IMG/VR virus record: IMGVR_UViG_3300000228_000009
Span: 1-59,124 of that record
DNA: 59,124 nt
From: a virus
Reading direction: 5' to 3' (one strand)
The position numbers were made by a program, and so were the translations under genes. The notes beneath the pieces are model-generated. The model was not told where the DNA came from, did not search any database, and saw nothing but the letters and a program-made list of their open reading frames with translations. Positions 5,135-51,074 of the stretch are shown one piece after another (position 1 is the stretch's first letter; every line of letters starts with the position of its first letter).

Positions 5135-5725
5135 TTATAAACTAGAAGCATGATAAGTGTTTGTTAGCATATCTATAGCTTTGGTTCTAGTTAGAATCAT
5201 TTCTCCGTAAAATGATTCATATATTAATGGATATCGTGCATATCCATTCGTTCCGTATTTATCTTTAAGATATTTGATAGAATCTTGTATACGGTTTTTA
5301 CCAGTTCTACATTTAAGACAACGCTCCATTAAGATTTTTACACTGTTTTCATCAGGAACATCTCGGTCAGCAGAGCTTATAAGCTCCGACAAGATGCTAC
5401 TATATTTACCAGTATAACTAGCTCTATGTTCTCTTATTGCTGATGTGACTCGATATTGAGATTCCAATGACATATCAGTTTTACCTGGATATGCTTCATT
5501 GATTGCAAACAGCGCACCAGCTTCGTGATGATTGTCTCTACCAAGATACAATTGCACATCATGCATTAGTGCTGCTGCTATTATTTCATCTTCTGGTATA
5601 TTAAGATTGAAATAGTTATTAAACATAATAGCTCTTTCAAAAACAGATTTAGCATGATTTAATTGGTGAGCCAAATCATTTTTATTGTAATAAGGTTCAA
5701 CAAATGATATCATTAAATTTAACAT
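5135..5725 (-). CDS. HD-domain phosphohydrolase
   Basis: 196 residues. Metal-binding pattern of the HD superfamily is present: H24, the H55-D56 pair in AALMHDVQLY, H66/H67, H100 in REHR and D120 in SADRD. Family members hydrolyse phosphate esters of nucleotides, including (p)ppGpp, dNTPs and cyclic nucleotides; the phage substrate cannot be told. AAGGAG lies 8 bases before the ATG. A second, distinct HD protein is at 35906-36481. Confidence 0.8.
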   Translation of the reverse strand: MLNLMISFVEPYYNKNDLAHQLNHAKSVFERAIMFNNYFNLNIPEDEIIAAALMHDVQLYLGRDNHHEAGALFAINEAYPGKTDMSLESQYRVTSAIREHRASYTGKYSSILSELISSADRDVPDENSVKILMERCLKCRTGKNRIQDSIKYLKDKYGTNGYARYPLIYESFYGEMILTRTKAIDMLTNTYHASSL

Positions 5726-32800: not shown

Positions 32801-33349
32801 ATGAATAATAGAGTTGAAGGTGTAGTAAAGTGGTTCATTAGCTGAGAGCCCTTTATACTGGTAACAGTATATCGAAACTCCTCTAATTGCTGGAACATCC
32901 TTATAGCCTAGTGAACTACAACGTAGATAAAAATATCAGACGTGAATGTTAAAAATTACTAGGATTGGACGATCAGCAGCTAAAGCCTTTTAAAATGGGT
33001 TAAGTTCAACGACCAGTCGTAAGACGTAGAGTAGAAGCTATTGCTACTTGAAATGGGGAGAATCCAAACATATTTGGATTTTGATATGGTCTTATCTTTA
33101 TGGAAACATAAAGCTATCTTAAGATAGAAATAATCAGTAGCGTGATTATTTAAAAACGTATAAGTTTCAGCCGACAGAGGGTATGGTTTTGCAGTAGTTA
33201 CTGGTGATAAGAAAGAGCAAGAATATTTTTTACACTTTTCTACAATTAATATGGATGGTTATAAAACTTTGAAAGCCAAACAAAAGATTTCATTTGTTTT
33301 AAAAGACACAGAAAAAGGTATACAAGCTACTGAAGTTGAGTTGCTATAA
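32801..33349 (+). CDS. Cold-shock protein, split by a group I intron
   Basis: Exon 1 is 32801-32834 and exon 2 is 33165-33349; joined they encode 72 residues, the normal length of a CspA-type protein. The junction restores VKWFSADRGYGFAV, matching the family's KWF...KGYGF (RNP1); EYFLHF is RNP2. The protein is a single OB fold that binds single-stranded nucleic acid and melts RNA structure. AGGAG precedes ATG. The stop overlaps the next start (TAATG). Read without splicing, the frame stops within a few codons of the intron start. Confidence 0.9.
32835..33164 (+). ncRNA. Group I intron in the cold-shock gene
   Basis: 330 bases without an endonuclease gene. P1: 5' exon AAAGTGGT pairs with intron GCCCTTT (one mismatch), placing the splice-site U-G pair after 32834. 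P10: 3' exon TTTCAG pairs with intron CTGAGA. The last intron base is G (33164). The core has GATCAGCAGCTAAAGCC and TTCAACGACC followed by AAGACGTAG, typical of group I P6-P7 regions. Confidence 0.85.
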
Positions 33350-37784: not shown

Positions 37785-40700
37785 ATGTCTAAACTAACCA
37801 AAAACATGGATATTGTTTTACAACAAGGTCCAGAAATGATCGAGTTTTATAGAAACAATCCTTGTATTGCTGCATATGAATTACTTGGTGTAGATCTGGC
37901 TCCTGTACAACGTATAGTATTTGAGGCTATGTGGTTTAAGCCGTATGTACTGGCAATATGTTCTAGAGGTATGGGAAAAACCTTTTTGTCTGGGGTACTT
38001 GCATCATTACTAACTTTGTTATATCCTGGATATAGGGTGGGCCTGATAGCCCCTAGTTTCCGCCAGTGTTTATTAGTATCAGATACTAACGCTACTTTTT
38101 GGACATCCGATGGCTTAAGTGTAGCAGAGAATTTTTATAATGCTATTGAGTGTGGTACTACACATGTTCAGTCCTTGTACAATAATAACCTAATAGTAAA
38201 TAAGTGGAAAAACCCCAAAAGACCTTGTATAAAGATAGATACAGAACGTGGTTTTTCTGTTGGTGGTACATTGGATCATAGGTTACTAACAATAGACACA
38301 AACATGGATTTGGTTTACACTAATTTATCTGATATTACAAAAGACACTTATATAGCTATAAAAAAGGGTTTTAATTTATATGGTGATAGTATTAAACTTC
38401 CAGATGTTTTTATTGAAGAATCTTACAGGAACAAATGCTGTACGCTCCCTAAAACTATGACAAAAGATTTTGCTTATTGGCTAGGATTACTAATAGGTGA
38501 CGGTAGTATAGAATATAATGAGACTGCTGGAAAATATAGAGTATGTTTCTATAGCTCAGATTATGAGTTAACTGAAAGTTTTAAAAAAATAGGCACTAAA
38601 TTATTTGGTATTAATCCTTGGAAAGATGTTGATAGAAATGGTAATATTTCTTCTTGTTTTAATAACAAGAAAATGCTCAGGTTTTTACTAAGTTGTGGTT
38701 TAACCACAAATAACTCTCCACTAAAATATATACCTCATGTAATATGTAAAGCACCTAAAAGTTATATAGTAGAGTTTGTGGCAGGGTTGTTAGATACAGA
38801 CGGTAACGTTTCTCAATTTACAGACAATAATTACAAATGGATATCAATAGGTTTAACAACTTCATCAAAAAGGTTGGCAGAGGAGTATAAAGCAGTTTTA
38901 CTTAATATTGGCGTTATGTCATCTACTAGTATTGATGATAGGCTTGATAAAAATTATATAGTAGATCATATAGCAACTAAGAAGTATCTATCATATAATA
39001 TAACAGTTTCTGGTTTTGATGATATATGTACTTTTCACAAACATATTAAATTTAAGTTAAAAAGAAAACAAGAACTTATTGATGGGTACATAGAAAATAA
39101 GTCTTGTAAAATAAGTAATACTAATAAACTTCCTTATTCCTTACCATATTATAAAGAATTATTGATACATCTAAATACTACACATAGTAAGCTACTTACA
39201 GAAAATGAACTTATTTTAGCTCGTATGGGGATACGTTGTTGCCACAAAAATAAATCACAAAGTATCACATGTAAAAAACTACTTCAAGTGTTATCAATAT
39301 ATGATAAGTATAACTTACATCATACAGCTATTAGTAAAATAGAAAACTTATTAAACTTAAATTTATGTTTTGTTAAACCAAAAGAAATTACTAGTTTATT
39401 CGAAGAAACTATAGATATTGAAGTAGTTAACGAATCTTGTTATTTTAGTAGTGGTTTTATTAGTCATAACTCTAAAATGATATTTAATGAGGTTGAGAAA
39501 TTATATTCTAAATCACCTATATTACGCGAAGCAACAGAGAAGAGACCTATTCGTGGATCTGACACTTGTTACTTAAAATATAAATCTTCCGCAGGAACAA
39601 ACGGTTCCTTTATTGAAGCCCTCCCATTAGGAGCAGATGGGGCCAAAATTCGTGGTTCTCGTTTTTATTGTTTGTTGGTGGATGAGTTCGCACAAGTACC
39701 ATCAAAAATAATAGAAACAGTTCTAGCACCAATGAGTATTACTAAATTAGATCCTATGAATAAAGTACGGGAGTTGGAACGTAGAAAGTCTTTGATAGCG
39801 GCAGGTTTAGCATCAGGGGATGATTTTGAGGAAGATTCTGTGAATAAAATGATCGGGACTTCATCTGGTTACTACAAGTTTAATCATATGTATAAACGTA
39901 TGAAGGAGTATTGGAATCAGATAGATGCTGGATCACAGGATCATGCAGTTTTCCAGATACCTTATACAGCACTACCTGAAGGTTTCCTTGATCCTAAGAA
40001 TATAGAAAATGCTGAAAGGGTTATGTCAAGTCATGAGTTTGCTATGGAGTATTTGGGAGCCATGGTGAGTGACTCAGAAGGTTTTTTTAAAGCGTCTGTT
40101 TTAGAAAAATGTACAACTTCCGATCATTCTTTAGAATTATCAGGAGAAAAAGAAGTTAGTTATATTATTGGTATAGATCCTAACCAAGGTGGTAAAGCTA
40201 AATGTGGTGTTGTAATAATTAGGCTCGGAAGACCAAATAAGATAGTAAGAGTTTTAGCTCTTGATGGTAAAACTACACAAGACATAACAACGTCTCTTCA
40301 GGATTTATGTAATTCTTACAATGTTATAAGGGTGTTCATGGATAGGGGCGGCGGCGGAAAGGCAGTATCTGATTTGCTGGCTGAAGGATATAATAATTCG
40401 GAACCTATATTAAATATAAACGACAAAGACAACTTAAAGATTAAAGGTAGACGTATACTAGATCTCATAGCTTTTAGTACTTCATGGATCGCCGACGCAA
40501 ATTTCGCAGCATTATCTTTATTTGAAGACACTAATCTTATGTTTCCACAGGTACCTTTATATAATGTTGATGATAAAGTACAAGATGTTATTTATAATAA
40601 TTATGACCTTATATATGAATTAAAAAGACAGTGTTTAAACATTGTTGTTACACAAACTTCTGGTGGGGCTTTACATTTTGATACACCTAAAAAAGGACAA

Positions 40701-40910
40701 AACAAGGACTTGTATTCTGCTTTAATTTTAGCTTGTTATGGTGTTAAAGCTTTAGAACATGAGTCTACAGATGCTGTTTCTTCTAACTCTTTTCATTCTA
40801 CTGGTGGTTTAGTTAGAGGACATGATGGTGGTAATTGGTCAAACACACCATCAAGTATTGTTTTATCATCAGCAGCTTTATCAATGGCTGTTTTAAATAA
40901 GAAAAAATAA
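37785..40910 (+). CDS. Terminase large subunit precursor with intein
   Basis: 1041 residues, of which 95-562 are an intein; the spliced protein is 573 residues. ATPase: Walker A CSRGMGKT (59-66); the strand VGLIAPSFRQ joins after splicing to SKMIFNEVEKLY; Walker B FYCLLVDEFAQ. Nuclease: IIGIDPNQGG, VFMDRGGGG and the late Asp in KDLYSALILA, giving the RNase-H-type site that cuts concatemers. It powers DNA packaging at the portal. No ribosome binding site is seen before ATG 37785; coupling to 37283 is likely. Confidence 0.9.
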   Translation: MSKLTKNMDIVLQQGPEMIEFYRNNPCIAAYELLGVDLAPVQRIVFEAMWFKPYVLAICSRGMGKTFLSGVLASLLTLLYPGYRVGLIAPSFRQCLLVSDTNATFWTSDGLSVAENFYNAIECGTTHVQSLYNNNLIVNKWKNPKRPCIKIDTERGFSVGGTLDHRLLTIDTNMDLVYTNLSDITKDTYIAIKKGFNLYGDSIKLPDVFIEESYRNKCCTLPKTMTKDFAYWLGLLIGDGSIEYNETAGKYRVCFYSSDYELTESFKKIGTKLFGINPWKDVDRNGNISSCFNNKKMLRFLLSCGLTTNNSPLKYIPHVICKAPKSYIVEFVAGLLDTDGNVSQFTDNNYKWISIGLTTSSKRLAEEYKAVLLNIGVMSSTSIDDRLDKNYIVDHIATKKYLSYNITVSGFDDICTFHKHIKFKLKRKQELIDGYIENKSCKISNTNKLPYSLPYYKELLIHLNTTHSKLLTENELILARMGIRCCHKNKSQSITCKKLLQVLSIYDKYNLHHTAISKIENLLNLNLCFVKPKEITSLFEETIDIEVVNESCYFSSGFISHNSKMIFNEVEKLYSKSPILREATEKRPIRGSDTCYLKYKSSAGTNGSFIEALPLGADGAKIRGSRFYCLLVDEFAQVPSKIIETVLAPMSITKLDPMNKVRELERRKSLIAAGLASGDDFEEDSVNKMIGTSSGYYKFNHMYKRMKEYWNQIDAGSQDHAVFQIPYTALPEGFLDPKNIENAERVMSSHEFAMEYLGAMVSDSEGFFKASVLEKCTTSDHSLELSGEKEVSYIIGIDPNQGGKAKCGVVIIRLGRPNKIVRVLALDGKTTQDITTSLQDLCNSYNVIRVFMDRGGGGKAVSDLLAEGYNNSEPILNINDKDNLKIKGRRILDLIAFSTSWIADANFAALSLFEDTNLMFPQVPLYNVDDKVQDVIYNNYDLIYELKRQCLNIVVTQTSGGALHFDTPKKGQNKDLYSALILACYGVKALEHESTDAVSSNSFHSTGGLVRGHDGGNWSNTPSSIVLSSAALSMAVLNKKK
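38067..39470 (+). mobile_element. Intein with LAGLIDADG endonuclease
   Basis: 468 residues from Cys-95 to Asn-562 of the precursor, followed by Ser. Block B is GTLDHRLLT; the two endonuclease motifs are WLGLLIGDGSI and FVAGLLDTDGN; the C-terminal block is GFISHN before Ser. All splicing residues (Cys1, block-B His, penultimate His, Asn, +1 Ser) are present, so it should be active. Confidence 0.92.
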
Positions 40911-40963: not shown

Positions 40964-42730
40964 ATGAATGAAAATACAGCTAATAAAATAACTGCAGATT
41001 TACAAGCACGTTATCCTGATGTAGGTATAAAGTCAGTATCAATAGATGAAGCCTCTGGTCAAACTACATTTTTAGTCGAACCAACTAAAAAGTCTTTGGC
41101 TTTCTTAGATAATCCTCTTATGCCACATACATTTAAAGCAAAGGCGTCTACACTTTCGAGGGACTCGTTGTCAAGATCCTATCTTGATCTATCCATGAAG
41201 AAAGATGTATATGATGAGGATCCTAAAGTTCTATATGACAAGGTAATGCGTTACTATTACACAGAACCAATAGTCGGGTCTGTTATTAATGTTTTATCGT
41301 CATTGGCTAGTAAAGGCTTTGAAAATGATATAGATGATGTTGACATAAAGAATTTTTTCGATACTTGGGTATTCGATGTAAATTTTGAGGAAGTTATAGA
41401 TTGGATATTTCTTGAATTATTTAAAACATCACAGGTTACTACATACAAATATATAGCTAACTACGAACCAAGAATATCAACAATACAGCCAGCTGGAAGT
41501 AGCAAATCTAAAAAAGTAAAGTCGGTTGGTAAATTAGAAAACGCTGCAAAAAAGAAAATTTGGTCTAAAGGGCATTTACCTGTAGGTTACACAGTTTTAA
41601 ACCCATCATTAGTTAATATTACAGGTAACTTACTTTTTAATAATGTATCAGTTTCTCTTTCACCTCCTAAAGAATTAGGAGAAGTATTAAAAAAGAATAC
41701 TTCAGATCTTACAGAAGAAGAAAAAGCACTTATTAAAGCGCTACCAAGCGATTTAAAAAAAGCGGCTGAAAGTGGCGGAGATTATCAACTTGATTCTAGA
41801 TTAGTAGGTAATATAACATACAAGAAGCAACCTTATGAAAGGTATGCAAGACCTAGAACAGCTAGAGTTTTCGAAAGTATTGAATATAAGAAAGCATTAC
41901 GTAACGCTGACTTAAGCACTTTAGATGGTATTTCTAATTATATTTTAAAAATTACTGTAGGTAATGACGAGTTCCCTGTAACATCTCAAGAAGAGTTAGA
42001 GGCCGTGGCTAAACTATTTGATACACCAAGTAAAAGTTTTGATGTTGTGTGGAATCACACACTTAAAATTGAAAAAATAGTTAGTCCAGAGATCGATAAA
42101 ATTTTAGGCCAGGCAAAATACTCTCAAGTTAATGAAGACATTACAGGAGGTCTTTCTTTTACAAGAGCATTACTAGATGCAACAGATGTCACAGCTGGAT
42201 CAGAATGGGCAATTGGCGCGGTAAAAGAAGATATTGATTACGCTAGAAAACAAGTAACACGTTGGATATATAACGAGTACAGACAGATAGCTGAAGCTGT
42301 GGGTTTTGATAGATTCCCTAGAGTTCGCTGGGATGAAAACATTCTTAGGAACGATATACTTTATAAAAATTCTATTGCTTCTATGGTGGATCGAAGAATG
42401 CTATCATATCAAACTGCACTTGAAACTTTAGGTTTTGATTACACAAATGAATTAGGTAATATGCAAAATGAGTTACCATTAATAATTGATGGTACGTTTG
42501 GTCTAAGAGGTAGCCCTTTTCAACAAGCTACATCATTACAAAAAACACAGAACGCTCCAGTTGGGACACCTTCTAACGGTAGGCCTACAGGAACTACAAA
42601 TACAAAAACACCAGAAACAGATCCTAGTAAAATAGAAGCCAGTAATTCTTTAAGTAGTGTTTTTTCTGCTATGTCTAAAGAGGATAGAGAATTACTTATA
42701 AAAGAAATTTCAAGTATTGATACGGATTAG
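40964..42730 (+). CDS. Portal protein
   Basis: 588 residues from ATG 40964. Identified from position after the terminase and from the portal-like N-terminal part (DEDPKVLYDKVMRYYYTEP, VGSVINVLSSLASKGFEND) and the internal ERYARPRTARVFES; the C-terminus is acidic and disordered. Portal rings form the packaging vertex and dock the terminase. The stop lies one base before the next ATG. Confidence 0.75.
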   Translation: MNENTANKITADLQARYPDVGIKSVSIDEASGQTTFLVEPTKKSLAFLDNPLMPHTFKAKASTLSRDSLSRSYLDLSMKKDVYDEDPKVLYDKVMRYYYTEPIVGSVINVLSSLASKGFENDIDDVDIKNFFDTWVFDVNFEEVIDWIFLELFKTSQVTTYKYIANYEPRISTIQPAGSSKSKKVKSVGKLENAAKKKIWSKGHLPVGYTVLNPSLVNITGNLLFNNVSVSLSPPKELGEVLKKNTSDLTEEEKALIKALPSDLKKAAESGGDYQLDSRLVGNITYKKQPYERYARPRTARVFESIEYKKALRNADLSTLDGISNYILKITVGNDEFPVTSQEELEAVAKLFDTPSKSFDVVWNHTLKIEKIVSPEIDKILGQAKYSQVNEDITGGLSFTRALLDATDVTAGSEWAIGAVKEDIDYARKQVTRWIYNEYRQIAEAVGFDRFPRVRWDENILRNDILYKNSIASMVDRRMLSYQTALETLGFDYTNELGNMQNELPLIIDGTFGLRGSPFQQATSLQKTQNAPVGTPSNGRPTGTTNTKTPETDPSKIEASNSLSSVFSAMSKEDRELLIKEISSIDTD

Positions 42731-42731
42731 T

Positions 42732-43679
42732 ATGTCCAAAAAATTAACTTATGCAGAAGTTAAAAGTATTTTTAATGCTAAGGGTTTGACACTTACATCA
42801 GAACATTATATAAATAATAAAATTAAATTACATTACATATGTAAAAAATGTGGTTATAGTAATGAAACTGATGTTATTACAGTTAAAAATAGTAAAGGTT
42901 GTCCAAGGTGTAATAATACTGTTTATAAATATAAAATTGATGATGTAATACTAGCTCTTTCCAAGGAAAGGTATAAATTAATTAGTACTGTTTATGATAA
43001 TAGTTGCCAAAGATTACAGGTTGAATGTAACAGGGGTCATATCATTACACTGGCCTTTAGGGATTGGGTACAAGGTTGTAGGTGCCTTAAATGTTATTTA
43101 GAAGATGTACAAAAAATAAATATAAGTAAATTGGATTTACCGTTTTATGACACATACGCCAGTAAGCTTGTAGTATATCAAGAAGTACATGAAATTATTC
43201 GTGTTATAAATAACGTTGAAGTATCATTATTAGGTGTTAATTGTTTAACATGTGGAAAAATTTTTATACCAAGCACATCATCAGTTTTTCGCAGATTGAA
43301 TTGTATAAATGGAGTAACAGGCGGCGAAAGTAATTTATATTGTTCGGAGGATTGTAAAGACAACTGTAGTGTTTTTGGGAAACATAAATATCCAAAAGGC
43401 ATCAAACAATATAGAAATATCAGACCAGATCAAAAACAATGGGCGGCCATAGTTAAAGAACGTGATAACTACACCTGCCAAAAATGTGGCTCTACAGAAG
43501 GAACTATAGTAGCACACCATATAGAACCAGTTATAGAAAATCCTATAGAATCCGCAGATATTGATAACGGTATAGCTCTTTGTCAAAAGTGTCATAATGA
43601 ATTACATAGTTTACCTGGGTGTAAAAGTAAAGATCTTAGATGTAATAAAAATACTAAGGAGGTGTTAAATGAAGTATAA
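42732..43679 (+). CDS. HNH homing endonuclease with zinc modules
   Basis: 315 residues from ATG 42732. Residues 242-291 form an HNH nuclease (YTCQKCG, VAHHIEPV, NGIALCQKCHNELH). Residues 9-61 and 67-121 are two copies of a Cys-rich module also present in 34911 and 49641. Residues 137-209 are a second module (LLGVNCLTC...YCSEDC) shared with 34911. It sits between portal and protease genes, a typical site for a free-standing homing gene. Confidence 0.8.
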   Translation: MSKKLTYAEVKSIFNAKGLTLTSEHYINNKIKLHYICKKCGYSNETDVITVKNSKGCPRCNNTVYKYKIDDVILALSKERYKLISTVYDNSCQRLQVECNRGHIITLAFRDWVQGCRCLKCYLEDVQKINISKLDLPFYDTYASKLVVYQEVHEIIRVINNVEVSLLGVNCLTCGKIFIPSTSSVFRRLNCINGVTGGESNLYCSEDCKDNCSVFGKHKYPKGIKQYRNIRPDQKQWAAIVKERDNYTCQKCGSTEGTIVAHHIEPVIENPIESADIDNGIALCQKCHNELHSLPGCKSKDLRCNKNTKEVLNEV

Positions 43680-46232: not shown

Positions 46233-49200
46233 ATGGATATCGTTGAAATGAGAAAACTGTTCGCAGCTACGGCTGAAGTACAGACTCCAGAGGGTATGGC
46301 AGCTTACCGAGCTTTCGCTGCTGCTATTACTGTACCTATCTTACAGAAGGTAGAGCTTGAATCTATTATGCGTCAGCTCTTTGCTGTTGAAAAATTAGCT
46401 CCAGGTGCTCAAGCAGTCTACCCGGTCGCTGAAGATTTCGAGATTAATTAAGTAGGAGTCTCGTAACTTGGCTATATGCTGGAAACTCCTGGTAGGTCTT
46501 AAGTACCAAAGTGTAAAAATCTTAAGAATAGGGATAATCAGCAGGAAAGATAAATTATGAATATATTAAAAGACAATAAAGATTTGTTATACAATTTATA
46601 TGTAAAACAAGAAAAGTCATTATCTAGTATTGCTAAAGATTATAGTATTTCTTCTATGACAGTTGCAGCTTGGTTAAAAAGGGTTGGTATAGAAACCAGA
46701 AAGTCATCTGTTAATATTTATAAAGAAATAAAAAATACAGAATTTAGTGATGAACAAAAGAGCTTGATTATAGGATCTATTTTAGGTGATGGTTCTATTA
46801 CAAAAGGAAAAGATTGTAAAAATGCTAGGTTTGTTGAAAGACACTGTGCGGAACAGCTTAATTACTTACAGTGGAAAAATAGTATACTTAAACCTTTTGT
46901 AAAGTCTAACCTTATAAAAACTCCTGGAGGATGTCATATTATATCAGGTGTTATTTGTACTACTCAAGATAGTTACATTTTATCTACTATAACACATCCT
47001 TATCTAACTGAATTATATAACAAGTTCTACCCTAAAGGTAAGAAGTGCATACCAGAAGATTTAAATTACAATTTAACCGCATTATCAATTGCTGTTTGGT
47101 TGTGTGATGATGGTTGTATTACTTGTAATCCTGGAAACAGTACCTATAGGTTAGATTTACATACAGAGAGTTTTACATATAATGAAAATCTTTTTTTATG
47201 TAGAGAAGTGTTATCTAAATTTTTTGGTTTGGGTTTTAGAATAAACACTAGAATGTATAAATCAGGAAGAGCTTACTATATATGTATAAGTGGTAAAGAT
47301 AATTTAAGACGCATTACTAGTTTTTTGAAACCATTTATACCAAGCTGTATGCTACATAAATTTAAATATTATTTATAATTTATATCCTCAACGACTATAC
47401 GCCAAGAACTTTAATTAGTTAAGATATAGTCTGAACTACATAGAGATATGTAGAGGAAAAGTCGAAGGTACTCAGACCTTCTAAAGAAGAACTTTTCCCG
47501 CCTATGAAAATAGGTCACAAAAGTAACAGAAATTTGTCCTGTTTGGGTATTACCTGGTTTAGGTTATCAGGCACAGAATTTTATTGAAGGAATTGGGGAA
47601 GAGGTTGGCATGTAATATAGGCCTCGTAACTTGACTATATGCTGGAAACTCCGGTAAGGCTTTAAATACTTAACCTATTGAAAAATGAGGAAGTGAAAAT
47701 TTTAAAGATACGGACAATCAGCAGGAAAGATGAGATTATATGAAAAAAATAGATGTACCAGAATATGAATTACTAAATAATTTATATACAGAAGAAAAAA
47801 AGTCTTTAATAGATATAGCAACTATATGCAACACATCTGCTATGACTGTTAGATCTTGGTTAAATAATTTAGGTATTGAAATTAAACAAGCTAATAATGA
47901 CATATATAAAGAGTTAAGATATGTAAGCTTAGGAGATCACCAAAAAAGTATCATAATAGGTTCTTTATTAGGTGATGGTAGTCTTAGAATACCTAAACGT
48001 GGAAAAAATGCTCATTTTTATGAAAAGCATAGCGTTGATCAAGAAGAGTATTTACATTGGAAATACGATAATTTAAAACCTTTCTCTATACATATACATA
48101 GAGAGTTAGGTAAAGAGAATCATAATATTTCAGGTGTAGCTTGTTCTACTAAAGATTCTGTAAAATTAACTACAACAGCTAATTCAGACTTAACTAAATT
48201 ATGGAAGTTATGGTATAAAGGCAATGGTAATAAAATTATACCACATAATTTAGATGACTACTTTAATAAGTTGGTGCTGGCTGTATGGATTTGTGATGAT
48301 GGTTCTTTTGTTTGGAATAACATTAGAAGAACATATAGGTTAGATCTTCACACAGAGTCTTTTACTTACAAAGAACAAGTTAGACTAGTAGAAAGTATAT
48401 ATAAATTATTCAAAGGTAACATACTTATAATACCAAGGAAGTACAACAGTGGGGAAAAATTTTATTTAAGTTTACGTAATAAAGTAGCTCTTCATGAACT
48501 TTGCTTGTCACTTAAACAGTATGTTCCTGAGTGTATGTGGTATAAATTTAATACAAACATATAATTTCAAATCCTCAACGACTATATGTCAAGAACTTTA
48601 ATTAGTTAAGATATAGTCTGAACTTACGGGAAACCGTAAGAGGGAGAGTTTAAATACCCTCCCCGCCTATGAAAATAGGTTACAAAAGTAACAGAACGCT
48701 ATGTACCCACATTCAGTATTAATGCTTCCGCAGATTGGAAGATTACCTATGCTCGTGATTCTCGTATTGATATAGTTCAGAGAACTGCAGCTAGAGTTGC
48801 AAAAGATTTAGCAAACTATGAGGAAGAGTGCGGTTGGAGAGTAATTGTTCCAGCAGCTACATCTGGTTTTGCAGGTAAAGGTTTGTTAGGTGCTCGTCCA
48901 GCTCCTATTTATGAAATTCCTACAGGTTCTGCTGGACAAGGTTACCTTTCTAAGGAATTGGTAAACAAAATGTTAGTTGGTTTTAAGCGTTTAGGTAGAA
49001 CTCTCACAGACCTATATGTTTCTCCAGAGGATGCAGCTGATATTCGTGAGTGGACTGATACTGATATTGATCCAATTACTCGTAGAGAAGTGTTTACTGC
49101 TGCTGGTATGGGTAGTATTTGGAATGTTGCTCTTCATGAAGTACAACATTTAGGAGCACCAGGTCTTTACAATATTAATGGTAGTACCTCTCAGTATGGT

Positions 49201-49485
49201 AAGTTCTTAGCTGATGGTACTAATAAGTATAATGCCTACACATTAGATAATCCTAATGTAGTTGATGCAGATGGTACCGTTACTACACTTGGCGAAACTC
49301 AGATTTATGGTTTTGACATGACTGCTAATGACTCCCTTGTTATGCCTATTCGTAAAGAGTATGAGGCACACGAAGATCCAACCTTGTTACGGGTGCAGAA
49401 ACAAGGATTCTTTGGATGGGCTGAACTTGGCTTCTGTTGTTTGGATAGCCGTATGCTTGGTATTGGTGTTATTGATCGTTCATAA
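46233..49485 (+). CDS. Major capsid protein, split by two group I introns
   Basis: Exons 46233-46444, 47537-47605 and 48699-49485 join to 1068 bases (355 residues plus stop). The junctions restore EDFEIPVWVLPGLGYQ and IGEEVYVPTFSINASADW, matching the conserved PVWVLP...YVPTF...DWK...YARD region of this capsid type. The rest includes GWRVIVPAA, LYVSPEDAADI, an aromatic FFGWAELGF and CCLDSRMLG near the end. HK97-type fold is expected. AAGGAGAT precedes the ATG. A strong UUCG-loop terminator follows. Exon 2 is only 69 bases. Confidence 0.92.
46445..47536 (+). ncRNA. Group I intron 1 of the capsid gene
   Basis: 1092 bases. P1: exon GAGAT pairs with intron GTCTC with U-G at the splice site. P10: intron AGGA pairs with the start of exon 2 (TCCT). 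Core signatures: AATCAGCAGGAAAG, then CAACGACTATACG with AGATATAGTC forming P7 (GACTAT/ATAGTC). The last intron base is G. Carries a LAGLIDADG gene between the core halves. Confidence 0.92.
46557..47378 (+). CDS. LAGLIDADG homing endonuclease of intron 1
   Basis: 273 residues. N-terminal helix-turn-helix (SLSSIAKDYSISSMTVAAWL), then LAGLIDADG motifs SLIIGSILGDGSI and LSIAVWLCDDGCI in a single-chain two-motif enzyme. It should cleave intronless capsid genes at the exon 1-exon 2 site. The AGGAAAG that can act as its ribosome binding site is part of the intron core. Confidence 0.85.
   Translation: MNILKDNKDLLYNLYVKQEKSLSSIAKDYSISSMTVAAWLKRVGIETRKSSVNIYKEIKNTEFSDEQKSLIIGSILGDGSITKGKDCKNARFVERHCAEQLNYLQWKNSILKPFVKSNLIKTPGGCHIISGVICTTQDSYILSTITHPYLTELYNKFYPKGKKCIPEDLNYNLTALSIAVWLCDDGCITCNPGNSTYRLDLHTESFTYNENLFLCREVLSKFFGLGFRINTRMYKSGRAYYICISGKDNLRRITSFLKPFIPSCMLHKFKYYL
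47606..48698 (+). ncRNA. Group I intron 2 of the capsid gene
   Basis: 1093 bases, clearly related to intron 1 over the core and 3' end. P1: exon GAGGT with intron GCCTC (U-G at the splice site). P10: intron ATAG with exon 3 start CTAT. P7 GACTAT/ATAGTC is identical to intron 1. The last intron base is G. Confidence 0.92.
47740..48564 (+). CDS. LAGLIDADG homing endonuclease of intron 2
   Basis: 274 residues, homologous along its length to the intron 1 enzyme: same helix-turn-helix start, motifs SIIIGSLLGDGSL and LVLAVWICDDGSF, and matching C-terminus. Divergence is substantial, so the two introns separated long ago or were acquired independently. Confidence 0.85.
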   Translation: MKKIDVPEYELLNNLYTEEKKSLIDIATICNTSAMTVRSWLNNLGIEIKQANNDIYKELRYVSLGDHQKSIIIGSLLGDGSLRIPKRGKNAHFYEKHSVDQEEYLHWKYDNLKPFSIHIHRELGKENHNISGVACSTKDSVKLTTTANSDLTKLWKLWYKGNGNKIIPHNLDDYFNKLVLAVWICDDGSFVWNNIRRTYRLDLHTESFTYKEQVRLVESIYKLFKGNILIIPRKYNSGEKFYLSLRNKVALHELCLSLKQYVPECMWYKFNTNI

Positions 49486-49640: not shown

Positions 49641-51074
49641 ATGCAAGAATTTAAAACTAAAGTTTGTTTGATGTGTAATGAAGAATACTCACCTACCAGC
49701 CCAAAACAAAAATTTTGTATTAGTTGTAAAGAAAAAGCTGTAAAATTAGCTCAGGCCGAGAGAGACAAAAAACGCAATCGTTTGAAACATAGTACTGTTT
49801 ATGAAAGAATTTGCCCTTTTTGTGAAGCACATTTTCAAACATTTGACTCTAAGAAAAAATACTGTGGTTCTGAAGAATGTGAAAATTTTAGATGTAAGTT
49901 GAAAAGCAAAGTTGGTCATGTTAGAAGGGATAAAACAGCTTTACTTGAGAAAGGAAGAAAATACTATAGTGACAATACAGATAAATGTAGATTAAGTACT
50001 GCTACCAGATATAGAAAAAATAATACAGATGCAAAAGATTACGTTTCTAGAGGTAAGTTTAGGAATTCTTATGAAGAAGTAAAAACTTACATTGAATCTG
50101 AAGGTTATAAACTGATGTCAGATACTTACATAAATAATAGAACTAAACTATCATTACAATGTTCAGAAGGACACCAGTATAGAGCAACTTATCATAGTTT
50201 TAGAAATAATGGTGGTGTACTTGGTAACAGGTGTCCATATTGTTATAGACAAAATAATTATGTGTCAAAACCAGAACAACTAGTTAGAGACTTCATTCAA
50301 ACACACTTCCCTGACTTACAAGTTATTTACAATGACCGCAGTGTCCTAAAGCCAAAAGAACTTGATATTTACATACCATCAAAAAATTTAGCTATCGAAG
50401 TATGTGGGTTATATTGGCACAGTGAAACAGTCACAGGAAAGCCAAAATCTTATCATTACGATAAAATGATGGGTTGTTACGCTAAAGGTATTCAGTTGAT
50501 TACAATATTTGAAGATGAATTATATGAATATAAAGATGTAGTCTTTTCAAATATAAGACAGGCACTAGGAGAAACTCTAAATAAAATTTGTGTCGAAGAT
50601 TGTAATCTAAAAGAAATAACTTTAAAGGAAGCTAATGACTTCTACTCAAAATATCATTTGTGTGGTAAAACTACTGGTACCATCAGTTATGGTTTGTTAC
50701 ATGAAAATAAACTAATTTGTGCATGTAGTGTAGGTCCAGTAATAAAAAATAACAAAGCAAGTGCGTTTAAACTTGATATAAAAAGATTTTGTACTTTACC
50801 AGACACATATTTATCTGATGGATTCACTACAATATTTGAAACAATTAAAACCAATCATAGCTACAAAGAGATAATAGCACATTGTGATATGCGGTATTCC
50901 AACATGTCAGACGATCTATATGCAAGACACGGTTTTACTTTGTTGACACAATCAAAATTTACACCTCATTATTTCAAAAGTCAAAAAAGATTTAAAAATT
51001 CATTAAATGCAAACAATAATTATGGATTAATTTGGGATTGTGGTCATAGAACCCACATTTATAAAATAAACTAA
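49641..51074 (+). CDS. EDxHD (Vsr-like) homing endonuclease with C-terminal extra domain
   Basis: 477 residues. Zinc pairs (CLMC...CISC; CPFC...C) near the N-terminus, a shared Cys-rich module at 147-201, the nuclease with E240-D242 (PKELDIYIP), E253 in AIEVCGLYWH and H260, then a domain at about 305-477 of unknown type that ends CGHRTHIYKIN. Such enzymes occur free-standing in large phages. It has its own promoter. Its last 64 bases are repeated at 51652-51715. Confidence 0.75.
   Translation: MQEFKTKVCLMCNEEYSPTSPKQKFCISCKEKAVKLAQAERDKKRNRLKHSTVYERICPFCEAHFQTFDSKKKYCGSEECENFRCKLKSKVGHVRRDKTALLEKGRKYYSDNTDKCRLSTATRYRKNNTDAKDYVSRGKFRNSYEEVKTYIESEGYKLMSDTYINNRTKLSLQCSEGHQYRATYHSFRNNGGVLGNRCPYCYRQNNYVSKPEQLVRDFIQTHFPDLQVIYNDRSVLKPKELDIYIPSKNLAIEVCGLYWHSETVTGKPKSYHYDKMMGCYAKGIQLITIFEDELYEYKDVVFSNIRQALGETLNKICVEDCNLKEITLKEANDFYSKYHLCGKTTGTISYGLLHENKLICACSVGPVIKNNKASAFKLDIKRFCTLPDTYLSDGFTTIFETIKTNHSYKEIIAHCDMRYSNMSDDLYARHGFTLLTQSKFTPHYFKSQKRFKNSLNANNNYGLIWDCGHRTHIYKIN

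Follow-up and report, generated by a model that had tools for sequence, protein, structure and literature searches.

Two neighbouring LAGLIDADG-bearing group I introns in a phage major capsid gene look like mosaics drawn from a local intron population

How does a single phage gene come to be interrupted twice, at sites only 69 nucleotides apart, by two introns that resemble each other? This question is raised by the virus record IMGVR_UViG_3300000228_000009, whose 59,124 bases are referred to here, in their full length, as the window. Its capsid gene (46233-49485) had been proposed, from the sequence, to carry two related introns, one of which arose from the other by retargeting of its guide to a nearby site. 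Our analysis leads to another history. The capsid gene probably holds two self-splicing introns, each with a LAGLIDADG gene, that belong to a local population of capsid-gene introns and have exchanged modules between sites, and their removal would leave one protein of 355 amino acids. What is seen in the sequence are the junctions, the pairings, the kinship of the individual segments and the distribution of the introns among relatives, and we take these up in turn.

The three exons of the capsid gene (all features of this locus lie on the + strand) join in frame into the 355-residue protein, in which EIPVWVLPG and EEVYVPTF run across the junctions. Exon 1 (46233-46444) extends through base 2 of codon 71 and ends in GAGAT; exon 2 (47537-47605) comprises 69 nucleotides with phase 2 at either end; and exon 3 runs from 48699 to 49485. 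As both intron sites lie in phase 2, skipping of the 69-nucleotide exon would keep the reading frame. A search of viral contigs with the joined protein gave 188 relatives, and in the best 80 of these the match is in one piece, spanning residues 1-355 in 79 and residues 5-355 in the remaining one (L022), at 77-95% identity. This colinearity with capsid homologues backs the joined protein of the original prediction and documents the presence of intronless alleles, with the proviso that the ranking of relatives favors uninterrupted copies because the full-length joined protein served as the query (the two capsid-relative searches used the best 80 of 188 and the best 80 of 161 relatives). The nearest intronless relative shares 82% DNA identity with the window, and a co-conversion tract was looked for in this comparison with no clear local peak or dip found beside the introns. 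As for the nature of the gene product, a PHROG search with the joined protein finds family 2522, 'major head protein', at an E-value of 1.1e-9, whereas the exon 1 frame by itself reaches 0.002 and the open stretch of the exon 3 frame 0.042, and a profile built from 20 uninterrupted relatives matches Gp27, the major capsid protein of phage G (PDB 6wkk), at 4.1e-16. The homology to Gp27 is one of profiles and is distant; tblastn aligns 65% of the query at 23% identity. Judged from these matches, the gene product is a phage major capsid protein, kin to PHROG 2522 and phage G Gp27. A structure prediction for the capsid protein reached a predicted local distance difference test (pLDDT) score of 32 and was not used.

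Intron 1 (46445-47536, 1092 nucleotides) and intron 2 (47606-48698, 1093 nucleotides) occupy sites 71.2 and 94.2, sites being named here by codon and phase in the window protein, and both have the build of group I introns with an endonuclease gene in the P6 region. In intron 1 the P1 strand of the internal guide, GTCTC (46458-46462), pairs with the exon end GAGAT, and in intron 2 GCCTC (47621-47625) pairs with GAGGT, with a T.G pair at each 5' splice site. Directly 5' of these guides, the P10 strands AGGA (46454-46457) and ATAG (47617-47620) pair with TCCT and CTAT, respectively, and the terminal base of either intron is G. The pairings and the terminal G were thus found as predicted, and the exact coordinates together with the joined protein confirm two related introns 69 bases apart with the junctions proposed. 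On inspection, the guide of intron 1 could accommodate GAGGT as well, by forming a G.U pair; it is likely P10 that discriminates between the GAGAT and GAGGT targets for this guide. The 5' strand of P3 reads CTTGGC in intron 1 (46467-46472) and pairs with GCCAAG (47401-47406), and in intron 2 CTTGAC (47630-47635) pairs with GTCAAG (48588-48593), a compensatory change from G-C to A-U between the two introns. The P7-P3'-P8-P7' block follows at 47389-47431 in intron 1 (CAACGACTA ... GATATAGTC) and at 48576-48618 in intron 2. A LAGLIDADG endonuclease gene was expected in each intron, and PF03161 (LAGLIDADG_2) is indeed matched far above its cut-off of 25 by both, namely by the 273-residue product of the intron 1 gene (46557-47378; 118.1 bits, 4.9e-34), in which the motifs ILGDGS and CDDG are both visible, and by the 274-residue product of the intron 2 gene (47740-48564; 116.1 bits, 2e-33).

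One might suspect that a locus seen on a single contig and supported at the level of sequence is non-functional, either as a broken capsid gene or as a misassembled contig. We regard this as very improbable, given the exact in-frame joining of the exons, the intactness of the exons and of the endonuclease frames, the compensatory P3 change between the introns, and the use of the same sites in other contigs.

Related loci were gathered from metagenomic contigs by intron patterns, by the endonuclease pair and by the end of the capsid protein, and counts include redundant contigs unless clustering is mentioned. Introns were placed by spliced alignment to a profile compiled from 78 different proteins of uninterrupted genes, with the boundaries of short exons set by hand. 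Ten intron sites are seen in this gene, at 59.0, 62.0, 67.0, 71.2, 81.1, 94.2, 138.1, 206.0, 211.0 and 334.0. From 20 loci, 34 introns were extracted, near-identical contigs being represented once, the introns of L264 and L265 being one intron twice, and partial introns in L120, L136 (upstream part) and L282 being left unextracted. All 34 are preceded by T, and 32 end in G, the placement of boundaries having favored T and G; at the best junction, the 81.1 intron of L260 and the 211.0 intron of L303 end in A instead. Filling one gene twice had been called unusual, a view that does not hold among the relatives, since L140 carries four introns (62.0, 71.2, 81.1 and 94.2) and L210, L245 and L260 carry three each. 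Internal exons shrink in such genes to 29 nucleotides (L210, L260, L140), 24 nucleotides (L245) and 15 nucleotides (L275, GTTTACCCAGTCGCT at 5639-5653, oriented, flanked by two introns), and these short exons supply the residues otherwise missing between the sites; those of L275, L245 and L210 score as fully as the profile allows, and those of L260 and L140 depart from it by one or two changes. The two window sites are themselves filled elsewhere, 71.2 in the L284 group, L210, L260 and L140, and 94.2 in L264/L265 and L140, with part of an intron also in L282, in either case with endonucleases that differ or are lacking.

In the sample obtained with the capsid end only, 62 of 80 loci are uninterrupted. 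At 98% identity the sequences fall into 66 clusters: introns are absent from 52 and present in 11, one has a truncated intron (L282), and two could not be assigned (L271, at a contig end, and L272, whose N-terminal part looks deleted). Six of the ten sites fall inside 107 nucleotides (p=0.0076 for any such span, the span having been chosen post hoc), and the stretches holding the sites are more conserved, at 0.958, than random positions, with a mean of 0.889 (p=0.0013). When loci were found by intron pattern, blind to the gene, a capsid match was present in 27, eight of them distant, among the 168 matches listed, on contigs that are partly redundant. Distant capsid relatives accompanied by the same intron pattern or by related endonucleases occur in L107, L110, L119, L132, L141, L198, L237, L250 and L145. 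Loci of this kind indicate that an association of such introns with capsid genes, in the sense of lying in one locus, may extend beyond the clade.

An Rfam scan of the window returned no group I match even at E-values up to 10 and gave two snoRNA-like matches far under their cut-offs; this silence is expected because each intron holds an open reading frame (ORF) of about 820 nucleotides between P4' and P7. Within ORF-free siblings, RF00028 matched the 71.2 introns of L140 (88.7 bits) and L260 (81.2 bits), the 334.0 intron of L169 (79.4 bits) and the 94.2 intron of L140 (74.7 bits). These were the four matches among the seven loci scanned, and the likewise ORF-free introns at 71.2 in L210 and at 67.0 in L245 stayed under the cut-off. 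A clade covariance model, built from five ORF-free introns of relatives, matches both halves of both window introns, at 46445-46612 (48.6 bits) and 47357-47533 (70.2 bits) for intron 1 and at 47635-47742 (36.2 bits) and 48543-48698 (80 bits) for intron 2, with E-values that are rough. A covariance-model search hence supports the group I assignment, even though RF00028 itself is silent on the window.

The pairings speak in the same sense. Among the 19 introns scored, P7 covaries as GACTA/TAGTC (13 introns), GAACA/TGTTC (three) and GACTG/CAGTC (three), and the P3 strands pair at 4.58 of 6 positions versus 2.82 (sd 0.30) with shuffled partners; this count omits 12 introns whose R motif was unmatched and, by choice, L265, the 211.0 intron of L303 and the 334.0 intron of L169. 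The P3 register is poor in L264 (2 of 6), in the 94.2 intron of L140 (1 of 6) and in the 81.1 introns (3-5 of 6). Outside the count, the introns at site 62.0, except that of L121, have GACTA/GAGTC as P7, with one non-standard pair. Over 33 introns, cognate exons and introns form P1 helices of 5.36 base pairs on average, as opposed to 3.44 (sd 0.19) after exon-intron shuffling, an excess that is partly built in because the choice of boundaries gave a bonus to T, G, P1 and P10. Taken together, the P3/P7 covariation, the RF00028 matches in siblings and the clade-model matches in the window establish a group I core with a P3-P7 pseudoknot, and we infer that both window introns are self-splicing group I introns. 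By BLAST, the P4-P6 stretch is 82.6-83.8% identical over 67-74 nucleotides to phages AR9 and PBS1 and to Clostridioides phages. This match suggests the same ribozyme family in other places; the comparison covered the P4-P6 stretch, and the host feature in AR9 is annotated as 'terminase large subunit', another gene.

The two window endonucleases share about 42-43.5% of their amino acids, and each has closer kin in other phages. The intron 1 enzyme is nearest to those encoded at site 67 in L306 and L295 (62% and 55% amino-acid identity), and the intron 2 enzyme to those of site-206 introns (55% and 50%). In a tree of 22 rows, the intron 2 enzyme groups with the site-206 pair with support of 99/99, and a topology with the window endonucleases as sisters is rejected (log-likelihood difference 71.35, p=0.00024 in the approximately unbiased (AU) test); the remaining forks of this tree are less sure and some rows sit on long branches. 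The two endonucleases are thus kept apart by the phylogeny, which joins intron 2 with site 206, and by the identities, which bring intron 1 closest to site 67. Kin of the window endonucleases at >=40% identity were found only in the capsid gene among 319 sequences (318 loci and the window), the best value elsewhere being 36.8%, and named phages reached 25.7-33.5% among the matches listed in tblastn. Each endonuclease used alone as a query in viral contigs yielded no relative, and an alignment of the pair did; likewise, one intron DNA pattern found no relative in viral contigs and other intron patterns succeeded. A search of a bacterial genome collection found no relative. Within the wider set, the 67.0 intron of L245 is without an endonuclease, and the endonuclease of L264 was assigned to the second class despite an identity of 28-32% to its members. 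By inspection, the endonuclease frame begins inside the ribozyme in the site 62.0 introns of L091, L121, L275, L140, L260 and L210, and in this class the Q element of P4' codes for the N-terminus of the endonuclease, MDNHAG or MDNQQ. As encoded, the window enzymes would presumably cut intronless alleles during co-infection.

Kinship within the ribozyme was compared segment by segment across 25 introns, L265 being dropped as a duplicate of L264 and the 67.0 intron of L275, the three 138.1 introns, the 59.0 introns of L270 and L245, the 334.0 intron of L169 and the 211.0 intron of L303 being absent as their motifs were unmatched. In P4-P6, with gaps counted, intron 1 is 88% identical to the site-67 intron of L306 and intron 2 is 78% identical to the site-206 intron of L210, and the window introns are 60% identical to each other; without gaps, intron 1 still stands nearer to its site-67 cousin (89%) than to intron 2 (76%). 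The picture is reversed in P7-P3'-P8-P7', where the window pair is 96% identical (35 nucleotides exactly so), the variable P8 loop included, versus a next best of 80% for intron 1 and 78% for intron 2. The P1 regions of the window introns have a similarity of 0.66, compared with 0.36 on average for pairs that share neither site nor phage, and their target pentamers, GAGAT and GAGGT, differ by one base. We assessed the shift from cousin to neighbor between the 5' core plus endonuclease and the stretch from P7 to the end by counting positions that match only the cousin or only the neighbor in four triples, columns being treated as independent. It is significant for intron 1 against L306 (p=3.3e-5) and L295 (p=0.0037) and for intron 2 against L210 (p=4.5e-7). 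From this pattern of kinship, the window introns look like mosaics.

Two simpler histories have to be weighed at this point. According to the first, an entire intron was copied to the site 69 nucleotides away after a change in its guide. The one-base difference of the P1 pentamers, the likeness of the P1 regions and the 96% identity of P7-P8 are as this account would have them, and it could also draw on a stretch of 95 identical nucleotides between the 71.2 and 94.2 introns of L140. Against it stand the endonucleases, which are not sisters and are each nearer to those at site 67 or site 206 of other phages, the P4-P6 segment of intron 1, which is nearer to site 67 introns, and the entire 3' tails, just 54% identical; we consider such a copying event unlikely. 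Duplication of an intron as a whole is already rejected, since it needs the two introns to be mutual nearest kin in every segment, and neither the endonucleases nor the P4-P6 of intron 1 conform. The retargeted copy of the original prediction accordingly survives in part: the introns are related and their targets lie one base apart, but origin as a whole intron fails. The same applies to the claim that both introns share P7 and their 3' ends, which stands for P7-P8-P7' and for the last ~30-40 nucleotides and falls for the tail as a whole. What is possible is that a ribozyme frame, consisting of P1 and the P7-P8 part, was retargeted between 71.2 and 94.2, with the endonuclease part exchanged afterwards.

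The second history holds that two members of the intron family homed independently to their own old sites, and that the likeness of their 3' cores is family-wide conservation. That 71.2 and 94.2 are both filled in other phages, with other endonucleases or none, is in its favor. Family-wide conservation sits badly with a P7-P8 identity of 96% that takes in the variable P8 loop when the next best values among the 25 introns are those cited above, and we judge independent colonization distinctly improbable.

Exchange of modules, the explanation that we prefer, is also visible in other genomes. The 94.2 intron of L140 contains, in addition to the 95 nucleotides identical to its 71.2 neighbor, 53 nucleotides identical to its 81.1 neighbor (94% over the tail), and its guide, GCCTC, is that found at 94.2 in the window and in L264; by these comparisons, L140 clearly appears to hold a chimeric intron. 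The 71.2 and 206.0 introns of L210 have 55 identical nucleotides in common toward the 3' end. Across the set, 3' tails from the same gene are more alike than under permutation of phage labels within sites (p=0.0027, 5 pairs), and endonuclease similarity follows P4-P6 (Mantel r=0.82) more closely than P7-P8 (0.56) or P1 (0.44) over 15 introns. The introns at 71.2 in L284 and at 94.2 in L264 carry other endonucleases and have P4-P6 segments resembling those of site 62 introns (0.78 and 0.77); compared with the window intron at the same site, their P1 regions score 0.69 and 0.61 and their P4-P6 segments 0.55 and 0.47.

Several observations weigh against such an exchange, in particular for intron 2. 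Without gaps, its P4-P6 resembles the site-206 cousin (78%) hardly more than it resembles intron 1 (75%), a near-equality that also favors duplication, and its likeness to L210 in this segment is mostly one shared insertion. When the site-206 intron of L169 is taken as the cousin of intron 2, the shift is not significant (p=0.20). The 3' tails of the window pair, at 54% overall, also differ in length by about 22 nucleotides. At site 67 of L275 there is an endonuclease with only 25% identity to the intron 1 enzyme, and other homes of the window endonucleases may have been missed because likeness to the capsid or the introns partly governed which loci were collected. In 13 same-gene pairs for each segment, neither P4-P6 (p=0.085) nor P7-P8 (p=0.24) shows a significant excess of likeness, and the repeated blocks of L140 could reflect a rearrangement in metagenome assembly.

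These findings lend themselves to the following model. LAGLIDADG homing introns would have settled in a conserved part of the capsid gene, both would be removed from the window mRNA to give the single 355-residue capsid protein, and the P1 guide would have to remain with its site. The cassette of P4-P6 and endonuclease may have moved between sites, and ribozyme stretches, most clearly those toward the 3' end, would become common to the introns of one gene copy. Such exchange might take place when several introns occupy one gene or meet in co-infection; since neighboring introns supply homology, both the P4-P6-endonuclease cassette and the 3' half could be replaced by recombination. We infer that recombination between neighbors, for instance through template switching in homing repair, caused the mosaics. 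Extended further, the capsid gene may be a breeding ground in which the guide belonging to a site is combined with the 3' half of a neighbor and with a P4-P6-endonuclease cassette from elsewhere, permitting repeated colonization only codons apart, an extension for which we see the chances as evenly balanced.

The window holds further elements of related kinds. A third group I intron-like element, free of an ORF, lies at 32835-33164 (+) in a small gene, with a clade-model match at 32856-33147 (69.5 bits). Its exons, joined by inspection, resemble an uninterrupted protein in L320 (1966-2241, MNKRITGYVKWFSADRGYGF...), and the small gene presumably codes for a cold-shock-type protein. In L062, a weaker match (43.3 bits) lies beside its copy of the gene preceding the small gene. 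The frame of the terminase large subunit (37785-40910, +; 1041 amino acids) has a LAGLIDADG_3 domain together with a match to Intein_splicing slightly below cut-off (residues ~133-562), and by these domain matches probably contains an intein. Two HNH-type endonuclease genes, assigned by PHROG and apparently free-standing, are found near the capsid gene at 42717-43679 and 49641-51074 (+), one of them directly downstream of it; by inspection, a similar gene occupies the same place in L144.

How does this locus compare with known systems? The introns of orf142 of phage Twort were reportedly described by Landthaler and Shub in 1999. In Bastillevirinae, up to three introns per gene occur in DNA polymerase and terminase genes, mostly with HNH-class endonucleases, and exon skipping between neighboring introns has been reported in other phages (PMC11878797); the portion of that report available to us describes no gene with ten sites and no 15-nucleotide exons, and its genes differ from the capsid gene considered here. 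Intron-rich phage genomes are known as well (PMC12363816). Closest in setting is mycobacteriophage LittleE, whose major capsid gene has an intron that its authors regard as most likely group I, with splicing demonstrated by reverse-transcription PCR and with 156 bp that recur at 98% identity in tail-gene regions of other phages (PMC3706429). As in the window, it is a capsid-gene intron with a LAGLIDADG-like gene; unlike in the window, there is one intron, and its reading frame is on the opposite strand (PMC3706429). Comparable crowding of group I introns with homing endonucleases and tiny exons is recorded for the mitochondrial cox1 gene of Agaricus bisporus, with 18 group I introns, one group II intron and a 3-nucleotide exon, which is no phage structural gene (PMC2987802). 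Our survey of a library of open-access papers, judged mostly from titles and the openings of abstracts, found no account of a phage capsid gene that has ten intron sites. Capsid-gene introns and phage genes with two or three introns are known already, and each single window intron is of a known kind. The apparent novelty lies in the crowding of a phage structural gene, which has ten sites, as many as four introns and exons of 15 nucleotides, together with segmental exchange between neighbors.

It has long been a puzzle how a homing intron comes to use a further target site, since guide, splice partner and endonuclease must change together. Many closely spaced introns whose guides, cores and endonucleases appear to have separate histories make retargeting testable on natural pairs. 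Simple gene calling reports only open frames and would therefore overlook the capsid protein of such genomes. For the phages themselves, the data suggest that expression of a structural gene, presumably at a high level, can hinge on the excision of as many as four ribozymes.

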